Source of the DNA: Thermosipho atlanticus DSM 15807
GTDB taxonomy: Bacteria; Thermotogota; Thermotogae; Thermotogales; Fervidobacteriaceae
Direction of reading: 5' to 3'
Assembly (NCBI RefSeq): GCF_900129985.1
Contig: NZ_FQXN01000003.1
Coordinates: 186,001 to 250,000 of the forward strand
Length of the DNA: 64,000 nucleotides
Shown: positions 7,656-16,354 of the stretch, one piece after another
Position numbering within the stretch: position 1 is the first letter of the stretch
Layout: the number at the start of each line of letters is the position of its first letter
Translations under genes and position numbers: made by a program
Notes under the pieces: generated by a model
Seen by the model: the letters and a program-made list of their open reading frames with translations, nothing else
Told to the model about the DNA's origin: nothing
Databases searched by the model: none

Positions 7656-9014
7656 TTAATAGCCAAATGAGAAAATACCAGTACCACCTTTATAATAGTA
7701 GAAAATAGCAACATAATCTCCTTTTTTAACCTTGCTAATTATCTCGTTCCAATCTTTTAGATTTTCAATATTATATGTTTCTCCATTTATAGCTATTCTA
7801 AAAATTACGAATCCTTTTGAAATATAATTATTTGAACTTTCGGTAACAATGACTCCTTTTATATTTTCAGGGATTTGGTAAGATTCTCGATCAGCGTTTG
7901 AAATTTCATCAACTTTAATTCCAATGAATTCTTTTGCTTCAATATTATCTTCATTACTTTTAGAAGCTTTGCCAAGAACAACTTCAATTACCTTTATTTT
8001 TCCTTTTCTATCAAATTTAATTTTAACTTTTGAACCGGGGGTGTAATTATGAATGACAGAAGCAAGTTCACTTGCAGAAGTTACTGAAATTCCTTCAACT
8101 TCCAAAATTACATCTCCTTCTTTTAATCCTGCTTTATCAGCAGGAGAGTTTTTAATTATCTGAGCAATATAAACTCCTTTATTAACCTTAAGTCCCAATG
8201 CTTTTTGAAGCTCAGGTGTAACAGTTTGCATGTAAACACCTAAGAATGCTTTTACTGCTTTACCAGTTTCGATTATGCTTTCAATAAATCTTTTTGCAGT
8301 ATTAATTGGAATTGCAAAGCCAATATTCATTGCTTCAGAAGGTGCAATGATTGCAGTGTTAATTCCTATTACTTGTCCATGGATATTTAACAGTGGACCT
8401 CCACTATTTCCAGGATTAATGGCGGCATCTGTTTGAATAAGATTTGTATAATAGCCGCTTCTATCTGGTTTGGGAATTTTTCTTCCAACGGCGGAAATGA
8501 CACCTAAAGTAACTGTATGTTGAAAACCTAGAGGATTGCCAATAGCAATGGCCCATTCTCCTATGTTTAAATTATCAGAGTCTCCAAATTCAAGAACTGG
8601 TAAATCTTTATTTTTAGGATCAATTTTTATTATTGCTATATCTAATTCTTCATCGCCTCCAATATATTCTGCATTAAATTCACTTCCATCTAGAAGAGTA
8701 ACTTTTATTTCTTCAGCTTTTTCTACAACATGGTAATTTGTAAGAATATATCCTTTTTTGTCAAATATAAATCCTGAACCTAAGCTTGTGGCTTTTTGCT
8801 GGTATTGTTTTGGTATGTCTCCAAACCAACGTTTGAAGAAATCTTGAATAAAAGGATCTACATAACTTGTGGAATAAACAACCGCTTCAATTTTTACTAC
8901 TGCTGGTGCACACTCTTTTACAACATTTACTACAGGGCTTTCATAATTTGGGTTTACAAAGCCGTAAATTAGTATGCTTAAAAAAACTAATGTGAAAGCT
9001 ACGTATTTTTTCAT
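7656..9014 (-). CDS. HtrA/DegP-type periplasmic serine protease
   Basis: Exported quality-control protease. The 452-residue protein has an N-terminal signal sequence or anchor (about residues 4-20), then a trypsin-like domain with catalytic His95 (TNYHVV), Asp125 (ELDIAIIK) and Ser204 (GNSGGP), then a PDZ domain around residues 255-350 (GVYIAQIIKNSPADKAGLKEGD). A C-terminal part from about 365 looks like a degenerate second PDZ domain. This is the usual DegP/DegQ/HtrA plan. ATG start with AGGAGGTG upstream. It is transcribed toward the rubredoxin gene and away from the TPR gene. Confidence 0.95.
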   Translation of the reverse strand: MKKYVAFTLVFLSILIYGFVNPNYESPVVNVVKECAPAVVKIEAVVYSTSYVDPFIQDFFKRWFGDIPKQYQQKATSLGSGFIFDKKGYILTNYHVVEKAEEIKVTLLDGSEFNAEYIGGDEELDIAIIKIDPKNKDLPVLEFGDSDNLNIGEWAIAIGNPLGFQHTVTLGVISAVGRKIPKPDRSGYYTNLIQTDAAINPGNSGGPLLNIHGQVIGINTAIIAPSEAMNIGFAIPINTAKRFIESIIETGKAVKAFLGVYMQTVTPELQKALGLKVNKGVYIAQIIKNSPADKAGLKEGDVILEVEGISVTSASELASVIHNYTPGSKVKIKFDRKGKIKVIEVVLGKASKSNEDNIEAKEFIGIKVDEISNADRESYQIPENIKGVIVTESSNNYISKGFVIFRIAINGETYNIENLKDWNEIISKVKKGDYVAIFYYYKGGTGIFSFGY

Positions 9015-13856: not shown

Positions 13857-14827
13857 ACTTTGGAATATTAGGTGCAGGAAGTTGGGGGATAGCATTCGGG
13901 AATTTGTTAAGAGATAATTCTCAAAATGTTTTAATATGGGGAAGGAGAAAAGAGTATGTTAATGAAGTGAATCAAACAAAAAGGACACCTTACCTTAAAA
14001 ATATAAGAGTCAATGTACCTCTTACTCATGACCTTAATGAGTTTTTAAATTTTACAGATATTCTAGTTATAGCTGTTCCTGTTCAATTTATTAGGGAAGT
14101 ATTTGAAAAGATAAAACAATTTGAACATAAAATTTTTTTGATTTTAAATTTGTCAAAAGGGATTGAGATAAAAACACAAAAGCGCGTTTCAGAAATAGTT
14201 TCAGAGTTTTTTAATGTACCTTATTCTGTTTTATCAGGACCTTCACACGCCGAAGAAGTTGCAAGTAAAATTCCCACTGCAGTTACTCTTGCGGGAGAAC
14301 ACTACGAGTTTTTGCAGAAAATAATTAGTAATGATTATTTTAGAGTTTACATTTCTAACGATGTTGTAGGTGTTGAAATAGCTGGAGCCCTTAAAAATGT
14401 CATGGCAATTGCTGCAGGAATTTTAGACGGTTTAGGGGGATGGGATAATTCAAAAGCTGCTTTAATGACGAGGGCTTTGTATGAAATGATAAAATTTGGT
14501 CAATATTTTGGAGCTAAAAAGGAAACTTTTTTTGGTTTAGCTGGAGTTGGTGATTTAATGGTTACTTGTAATAGTAAACATAGTAGGAATAGAAAATTAG
14601 GTGAATTAATAGTGAAAGAGAAAGATTTAAGTAAGATTCTAACTAATTCAAAAATGGTTGCTGAAGGAATGTATACTGTCAAAGCTGTAGTTGATTTCTC
14701 GAAAAAAGTTGGGATTGAAATGCCAATTTCAAATGAGGTATACGAAATCTTGTATAATGGTAAAGATCCAAAATTATCAATGTTGGAATTGATGAATAGA
14801 CCTTTGAAAAATGAGTGGTATATATGA
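13853..14827 (+). CDS. gpsA: Glycerol-3-phosphate dehydrogenase [NAD(P)+]
   Basis: Reduces dihydroxyacetone phosphate to sn-glycerol-3-phosphate for lipid synthesis. The 324-residue protein opens MNFGILGAGSWGIAFG, the Rossmann GxGxxG, and shows NLSKGIE, LSGPSHAEEV, the catalytic-lysine segment GALKNVMAIAAG, and GLAGVGDLMVTC with SRNRKLGE, all GpsA signatures. The start is a TTG at 13853 that overlaps the trmB stop codon (TTGA), with GGAGGTG 6 nt upstream. An upstream in-frame start at 13820 would add a tail that reads through trmB and is unlikely. Confidence 0.97.
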   Translation: MNFGILGAGSWGIAFGNLLRDNSQNVLIWGRRKEYVNEVNQTKRTPYLKNIRVNVPLTHDLNEFLNFTDILVIAVPVQFIREVFEKIKQFEHKIFLILNLSKGIEIKTQKRVSEIVSEFFNVPYSVLSGPSHAEEVASKIPTAVTLAGEHYEFLQKIISNDYFRVYISNDVVGVEIAGALKNVMAIAAGILDGLGGWDNSKAALMTRALYEMIKFGQYFGAKKETFFGLAGVGDLMVTCNSKHSRNRKLGELIVKEKDLSKILTNSKMVAEGMYTVKAVVDFSKKVGIEMPISNEVYEILYNGKDPKLSMLELMNRPLKNEWYI

Positions 14828-15174
14828 TTAATGAAATTATTAATTTATTGTTGGGTTCTCTTTTTTTAAGTACTTTATTAGGTTACGACAAATTTTTATT
14901 GAGTTTGTTAATTTCATTCTTAACTTGGATAGTAATTTTTCCAGGAAAGTATAATTTTTTGCTGTTAATTCTGGAAATTTTGAAAAATATTCCTAAGGTA
15001 ATTATTGAAGCTGTCGCAATCCTATTTTTAAAAAATGAGAAAATATCTATGGAAAAATATAAGGACGATTTCGAAATGTTAAGAAAAATAATTGTTATAA
15101 CTCTAACTCCAAAAACAATAGTTTTTGAACACGACGAAGATTACATTTATATTCATAAAATAGACAAGGGTTGA
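14824..15174 (+). CDS. Mrp/Mnh-type Na+/H+ antiporter subunit E-like protein
   Basis: A 116-residue membrane protein. Hydrophobic segments cover about residues 3-60, then a cytoplasmic tail contains VITLTPKTIVFEHDEDYIYIHKID, which matches the conserved TLTPGT-type motif and C-terminal region of MrpE. In Mrp complexes E is a small accessory subunit of the cation/proton antiporter. The ATG overlaps the gpsA stop (ATGA). Genes for F- and G-like subunits follow directly, which strengthens the call, but no large ion-translocating subunit (MrpA or MrpD) is nearby. Confidence 0.83.
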   Translation: MINEIINLLLGSLFLSTLLGYDKFLLSLLISFLTWIVIFPGKYNFLLLILEILKNIPKVIIEAVAILFLKNEKISMEKYKDDFEMLRKIIVITLTPKTIVFEHDEDYIYIHKIDKG

Positions 15175-15178
15175 TAAG

Positions 15179-15427
15179 ATGTTGGCAGTTATTGGAATAA
15201 TTTTATCTATTATTATTTCAATTTATATGACGTTTAAATGTAAAAATATTTATGAAAAGTTGATTCCTTTATTATCAATATCAACTAAAATATCTTTGTT
15301 GATTATGTTATTGTCGTATTTTTATAATTTACCTTATTTTTTTGAGGTCGGTTTACTCTATTTGTTATTATCAATTGGAGGCTCTTTTATAATTACATCG
15401 TTTGTTTCACGGAGTGATTTTCAATGA
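15179..15427 (+). CDS. Mrp/Mnh-type antiporter subunit F-like protein
   Basis: An 82-residue protein with three predicted membrane segments, the size and layout of MrpF. Sequence similarity is modest; the call rests mainly on size, topology and position between E-like and G-like genes, the normal E-F-G order. It starts 4 nt after the E-like gene and overlaps the G-like gene by 4 nt. Its partner large subunits are not in the window. Confidence 0.75.
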   Translation: MLAVIGIILSIIISIYMTFKCKNIYEKLIPLLSISTKISLLIMLLSYFYNLPYFFEVGLLYLLLSIGGSFIITSFVSRSDFQ

Positions 15428-15705
15428 CGTTATCTCAGACTATACTTATATATATAGGTGTATTCTTTATGATTGTAGGAAATTTTATAGCTTTAAAATC
15501 AAAATTTATTTTAAAAAAAATTCACTATCTTAGTGCAGGAGATACGGTTGGGGGAATTTTCATATTAATCGCTATAATGATGTCTAGTACATATTTTTCA
15601 AAAAGTTTATTGGCGTTAATAATTCTCTTGTTAGGTTCTCCTTCCATAACTTATTTCATTGCAAATACTCTTTCGAAGAGAGGTAGAAATATTGGAGATA
15701 GTTAG
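15424..15705 (+). CDS. Mrp/Mnh-type antiporter subunit G-like protein
   Basis: A 93-residue membrane protein with three hydrophobic segments. The stretch FMIVGNFIALKSKFILKKIHYLSAGDTVGG corresponds to the MrpG signature in which a short charged loop (R-x-H-a or K-I-H-y-x-S/A) is followed by T-x-G; ALIILLLGSPSITYFIA matches the conserved Pro-containing third helix. Shown here in pieces, these features give a better match than for the F-like neighbour. It overlaps the next gene by about 14 nt. Confidence 0.82.
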   Translation: MTLSQTILIYIGVFFMIVGNFIALKSKFILKKIHYLSAGDTVGGIFILIAIMMSSTYFSKSLLALIILLLGSPSITYFIANTLSKRGRNIGDS

Positions 15706-16354
15706 ATTTTTTTTATTAGTTTTAATGGTTTTAATAGCTGGGGTAGCTATTTTTTCACGTAAACCTTTTAATTCATTTATATTCAGAACTATTCTCAGCA
15801 TTTTGGCTGTTGGTTTATATGTTGTTTATCTTGCACCGGATGTTGCTTTGGCTGAAGCAATGTTGGGAGCACTTTTAACGACTTTTATTTATCTATTGGC
15901 ATTTAAAATTCATTCAGAAGTGAAAGTTGGAATTTTGATCTTACCAATTTTTTGTGAAAAATACCAATCAATGTATAAAGGAATTGTTCCTGAAATACTT
16001 GAACTTTTTGCTAAACAGCAAAATTACAAAATAAAATACATTGAGTTGAAAAATATGGATGAAATGCTTGAATATTTGAATGAATCACGGATAGATATTG
16101 GTATTTGTTATAATGGAGATTTTGAAATTTTAGAAGTTCCGGTATATGATTATAATGGAGATGAAAAAAATTATTTTGAAGTTTTAGAGTTAATGAAAAG
16201 TGAAAATAATCTTTCTGAATTAAAAAAATTAAAACATTTTAATTTGTCCTTTTGTTTTTCAGATAAAAATTCAATAATTTATGAGGAATTTGAACAATTC
16301 TATTCGAAAAGAACAATTGATGAAATAATCAATAAATATTTAGGGAGGTTATAG
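15692..16354 (+). CDS. DUF4040/MbhD-like membrane segment fused to a solute-binding-protein-like domain
   Basis: A 220-residue chimera. Residues 1-73 form three membrane helices with VVYLAPDVALAEAMLGALL, the DUF4040 signature of MrpA/MrpB-type and MbhD subunits of antiporters and membrane hydrogenases. From residue 77 the sequence turns soluble and resembles family-3 amino-acid binding proteins: VGILILPIF, YKGIVPEILELFAKQ, LEYLNESRIDIGIC, and a closing IDEIINKYLGRL like the family's last helix. The second lobe seems shortened. TTG at 15692 is chosen (GAGAGG upstream, protein starts MEIVRFF); the longer form from 15659 is possible. Role unknown; the binding-domain call is inference from pattern alone. 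Confidence 0.6.
   Translation: MEIVRFFLLVLMVLIAGVAIFSRKPFNSFIFRTILSILAVGLYVVYLAPDVALAEAMLGALLTTFIYLLAFKIHSEVKVGILILPIFCEKYQSMYKGIVPEILELFAKQQNYKIKYIELKNMDEMLEYLNESRIDIGICYNGDFEILEVPVYDYNGDEKNYFEVLELMKSENNLSELKKLKHFNLSFCFSDKNSIIYEEFEQFYSKRTIDEIINKYLGRL

Follow-up and report, generated by a model that had tools for sequence, protein, structure and literature searches.

The window, a 64,000-nucleotide stretch of a Thermosipho atlanticus DSM 15807 contig, contains genes for E-, F- and G-like subunits of an Mrp-type antiporter, followed by a gene that joins a DUF4040 (MbhD) membrane segment to a soluble domain with features of family-3 solute-binding proteins (SBPs). The arrangement raises two questions: whether the block encodes a small complex in its own right or part of a larger one, and what a binding-protein-derived domain would do there. 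The ORFs, their order and their Pfam matches agree with the first-pass annotation, which had described E-, F- and G-like genes followed by a 220-residue fusion:

14824..15174, + strand: MrpE/MbhA-like subunit, 116 aa (PF01899 (MNHE), 18 bits, below cut-off; synteny)
15179..15427, + strand: MrpF/MbhB-like subunit, 82 aa (PF04066, 21.6 bits, below cut-off; synteny)
15424..15705, + strand: MrpG/MbhC-like subunit, 93 aa (PF03334 (PhaG), 42.6 bits)
15692..16354, + strand: fusion protein, 220 aa, DUF4040/MbhD plus an SBP-derived soluble lobe (ORF, Pfam, AlphaFold model)
15692..15910, + strand: DUF4040/MbhD part of the fusion, residues 1-73 (MbhD Pfam, 50.6 bits; three TM helices)
15917..16351, + strand: reduced SBP_bac_3-type domain (type II binding fold), residues 76-220, predicted cytoplasmic

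The block is flanked by gpsA and an M42 peptidase gene. The ATG of the MrpE-like gene overlaps the gpsA stop codon as ATGA, and the fusion gene starts with TTG, about 8 nt downstream of AGAGAGG. The Pfam scores of the E- and F-like proteins are weak, and their identity is secured by synteny in relatives.

We surveyed 84 Thermotogota genomes with completeness of at least 90%, calling presence by bit-score thresholds set for this analysis. The fusion is present in 57 of them, and in none of these 57 are the DUF4040 and SBP halves separate genes. In-frame TGA codons in some relatives were found to be the native stop codon. The fusion and an MrpD ortholog occur together in 55 genomes and are both missing from 27; two genomes have only the fusion, with the locus at a contig edge in both, and none has only D.

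The first-pass annotation had also noted that no ion-translocating subunit is nearby, which holds locally but not genome-wide. An orphan MrpD-like gene and one for an MrpC-like subunit are found on contig C4 of the window genome, and an MbhE/MrpB gene is located at C1:227916-228542, such that B, C, D, E, F and G are all encoded across the window, C4 and C1. The genome also has a complete Mbx-type operon, around C1:151.7-162 kb, which is distinct from these genes and includes Mrp-like subunits of its own. The genome has only three Proton_antipo_M genes, of which two belong to the Mbx operon and one is the orphan D; with all three accounted for, there is no NuoL-like N-terminal half of MrpA. Nine Thermosipho-type genomes have the D/C and B genes away from the fusion, and in the two that are single contigs the three loci are hundreds of kilobases apart, so the dispersal is not an assembly effect. 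The recurrence of the same split, together with the presence of the fusion in most of the genomes surveyed, rules out an assembly artefact. Relatives outside the Thermosipho-type family have one seven-gene operon wherever the contig spans the region, in the order C-D-E-F-G-fusion-B or E-F-G-fusion-B-C-D. The earlier suggestion of a stand-alone small complex is ruled out by these operons and by the co-occurrence of the fusion with D, the orthologs of D, C and MbhE/B being encoded at two other loci in the window genome. Thus, the "missing" Mrp subunits of Thermosipho-type genomes are dispersed rather than absent, and we infer that they assemble into one complex.

An AlphaFold2 model of the fusion (19 sequences, mean pLDDT 82; the alignments behind the two structure models in this work are thin, at 19 and 12 rows) places TM helices at residues 2-21, 25-46 and 51-73 and an alpha/beta domain beyond the third. 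Glu55 is the counterpart of the cation-site residue known as E69 in MbhD and E706 in MrpA (PMC7419157), and its helix runs straight into the soluble domain. The window protein has Glu here, as do 31 of 45 orthologs, and the other 14 have Gln; the cation site thus varies within the fusion group, the Gln forms belonging to the families of loci L042, L044, L184-L194 and L197. The mean number of Lys and Arg residues per sequence is 2.53 in loop 1, 0.03 in loop 2 and 2.94 in the flank after TM3. From this positive-inside charge distribution, from homology and from its position after the third TM helix, the SBP-derived domain is predicted to be cytoplasmic, not in the extracytoplasmic location typical of SBP_bac_3 proteins.

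The SBP_bac_3 Pfam match in the window fusion covers residues 94-138 and, at 21 bits, is under the cut-off. However, SBP_bac_3 is matched by 31 of 32 fusion orthologs (best E 2e-10), and a Foldseek search with the AlphaFold model retrieved type II binding folds, including GluR0, LysR effector domains and MltF (best E 7e-5, TM-score ~0.42). The match is thus genuine as judged from the orthologs and the modeled fold, and the family-3 SBP features recognized in the first pass are borne out: the C-terminal part has a periplasmic-binding-type fold, though a reduced one. In a profile search against the PDB, fusion residues 69-142 aligned with MltF 8-81 and residues 182-221 with MltF 195-235, and the gap between them means that the fusion has just 39 residues in place of the 113 of lobe 2. 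The domain is therefore not a two-lobed type II fold; lobe 2 is reduced to about 39 residues and the usual ligand residues are absent, the canonical ligand-binding Thr and Arg not being conserved in alignment A1 as read by eye. A longer and apparently complete SBP domain is present in Bipolaricaulota and in one Caldisericota relative (Pfam residues 84-258, profile positions 11-130 of 132). The Bipolaricaulota model matches glutamine-binding protein with an E value of 7e-13 and a TM-score of 0.66 by target length, and the Bipolaricaulota profile has Glu opposite the Arg of 4i62. On sequence and model, Bipolaricaulota apparently keep both lobes, whereas the second lobe has been largely lost in Thermotogota.

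The length of the DUF4040 tail varies greatly between lineages, from about 88 to 199 aa. Profile comparison relates the cyanobacterial tail to the SBP lobe (HHalign 95.6% over 65 columns). Clostridial tails were ruled out as SBP lobes, as the profile similarity is not significant (10.5%). The clostridial and spirochaetal DUF4040 tails (L087, L093, L102-L104, L106, L110 and similar) are about 110 aa long and uncharacterised, have no significant SBP similarity and are accompanied by the same F/G charge signature as the fusion.

This signature concerns two neighboring subunits. The essential MrpF residue Asp35 is a key one in the model of the Na+ path (PMC7419157). The window MrpF-like subunit has Leu at this position and Lys five residues downstream, and the MrpG-like subunit has SAGDTVG in place of the canonical TKATTLG motif, with the Lys lost and Thr replaced by Asp. 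Asp35 is lost in 45 of 45 genuine fusion-associated F orthologs, with Lys or Arg five residues on, and the Thr-to-Asp change in MrpG is likewise found in 45 of 45. Across named genomes, clusters with a tailed DUF4040 (n=45) lack Asp35 without exception, have Lys or Arg downstream in 43 cases and have Asp or Glu in MrpG in all 45, whereas intact clusters with a bare DUF4040 (n=29) never have the Lys or Arg and keep Asp35 in 24 cases; these counts come from related sequences and hence are not independent events. Locus L170 was excluded from the F counts because of a spurious F match, and L115 from the bare clusters because its contig ends inside the gene. The signature therefore separates tailed from bare DUF4040 clusters in Cyanobacteria, Bacillota, Spirochaetota, Bipolaricaulota and Thermotogota. 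It also occurs in three of four proteobacterial clusters in which DUF4040 is fused to MbhE and has no soluble tail (L141, L147, L153, L157), and so marks more than the tail. That the new Lys in F and the Asp in G pair with each other is our guess. MrpC H37 and H40 are also not retained in the fusion-associated subunits. Residues equivalent to MrpA D792/E796 and MrpE P114/H131 are nearly always kept, the latter Pro and His also in the window MrpE-like subunit, and the TM5 Glu, TM7 Lys/Arg and TM12 Lys/Glu of the D subunit are kept almost throughout. With MrpF Asp35 placed on the proposed path, the tailed complexes offer natural tests of the Na+ path model.

Gene order, charge signature and the D tree identify the cyanobacterial group 3 Mrp systems as the closest relatives. 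Their order (C-D-E-F-G-A-B) is as in Thermotogaceae, the genes being contiguous in contrast to the dispersed Thermosipho loci; they share the F/G signature, and their DUF4040 subunit (NCBIfam PRK07377) has a C-terminal soluble tail, mostly 99-120 aa and under Pfam SBP_bac_3 detection, that is related to the SBP lobe. Reported group 3 clusters have two D genes as opposed to the single D here. In the D tree, most Thermotogota sets, including the D of the window genome, fall with Cyanobacteria in one clade (support 99/96); the tailed clusters do not form a single clade, and the D of some Thermotogota families lies outside the Thermotogota/cyanobacteria group. We found no description of a DUF4040-SBP fusion in the open literature, to which the search was confined. 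However, the earlier statement that no protein of this architecture has been described needs amending, because PRK07377 combines DUF4040 with a related tail, although it is annotated only as a hypothetical protein. Relationships to better-known systems are more distant. (i) The canonical seven-subunit Mrp complexes (6z16, 7qru) have homologous B, C, D, E, F and G subunits and a homologous C-terminal part of MrpA, and share E P114/H131, MrpA D792/E796 and the D-subunit Glu/Lys residues; here the N-terminal half of MrpA is absent, MrpF Asp35 and MrpC H37/H40 are lost, and the SBP lobe is added. (ii) MBS and MBH (6u8y, 6cfw) have homologous MbhD, F, G and C subunits, with MbhD E69 at the position of Glu55, but also a NuoH-like subunit and a redox arm that are absent here; their MbhD lacks a soluble domain, and MrpF Asp35 is lost in the fusion-associated complex. 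(iii) Family-3 SBPs such as GlnBP and the SBP domain of MltF share with the fusion the strands and helices of lobe 1 and the C-terminal segment; in the fusion, most of lobe 2 is gone, the ligand residues are not conserved, and the lobe is membrane-attached and predicted to be cytoplasmic.

We consider it probable that the four window genes supply E, F, G and MbhD to a seven-subunit complex that is a single-D relative of group 3 Mrp, and we propose that the cytoplasmic lobe serves as a structural or gating cap. The fused domain, predicted to be cytoplasmic, derived from a binding protein and largely devoid of its second lobe, follows directly on the Glu55 helix. There it could cap the cytoplasmic mouth of the path that cations take among MbhD, F and G, at the point where the charges of F and G are rearranged. 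The capping or gating role, taken alone, is speculative. The fusion shows the recruitment of a binding-protein fold to a complex of the cation/proton-antiporter type, apparently at its cytoplasmic face. A broader picture, in which an SBP-derived lobe gates Mrp-type transport from the cytoplasmic side, Bipolaricaulota retain a two-lobed and possibly ligand-responsive form, and the F/G signature marks a rewired cation entry, seems unlikely as a whole. One cyanobacterial group 3 Mrp has been reported to have Na+/H+ antiporter activity in E. coli (PMC5703873), and by analogy the fusion-associated complex may also be an antiporter. Given the place of Asp35 in the Na+ path model, its loss calls for caution as to which ion is moved. 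The Na+ path looks altered through the absence of Asp35, the loss of MrpC H37/H40 and the occurrence of Gln at position 55 in 14 of 45 orthologs (not the window's), and the complex may therefore have some activity other than Na+/H+ antiport.

Three other explanations were weighed against the cap. The lobe could be a passive structural remnant that stabilizes the E/F/G/MbhD side and has no part in transport, as suggested by how much the tails differ in length between lineages and by the lack of significant similarity between the clostridial tail and the SBP lobe; we regard this as rather doubtful, given that the halves are never separate genes in fusion-bearing Thermotogota genomes and that the tails accompany the F/G charge change, suggesting some part in transport. 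The solute sensor of the first-pass annotation is unlikely in the form proposed, for what remains is essentially one lobe that lacks the usual ligand Thr and Arg and is predicted to be cytoplasmic. A ligand-gated antiporter of the kind outlined there, in which the domain binds a cytosolic solute and thereby switches ion flow, is consistent with the resemblance of the fold to GluR0, LysR effector domains and MltF and with the two-lobed versions in Bipolaricaulota, yet it appears quite improbable in view of the nearly complete loss of the second lobe in Thermotogota and the unconserved Thr and Arg, even the Bipolaricaulota profile having Glu against the Arg of 4i62. Finally, the genes could encode the membrane arm of an unrecognised redox complex that is not an antiporter, with a soluble partner docking on the SBP lobe. 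The best PDB match of both the C and MbhD subunits is the redox-driven MBS complex 6u8y, and D retains its proton-path residues despite the changes in the cation path. However, in the operons examined we noticed neither redox genes nor a subunit like NuoH, and the closest relatives with a reported function are antiporters (PMC5703873), which makes a redox arm very unlikely.

Some features of the D subunits and their surroundings in the window genome are also of note. At L036:7978-8124 on contig C4, the orphan MrpD begins about 30 residues after the start of MrpD in relatives; the upstream frame is open, with no ATG, GTG or TTG before the TTG at 8089/8092, and the gene may use an unusual start codon or encode a shortened N-terminus. 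A 2-phosphosulpholactate-phosphatase-like gene lies between D and C on contig C4 (L036:9283-9963); it is present at this position in genera g1 and g4 and absent in g5. In the Mbx operon, the first D subunit (L037:8071-9420) has Glu in the column of the expected TM7 Lys.
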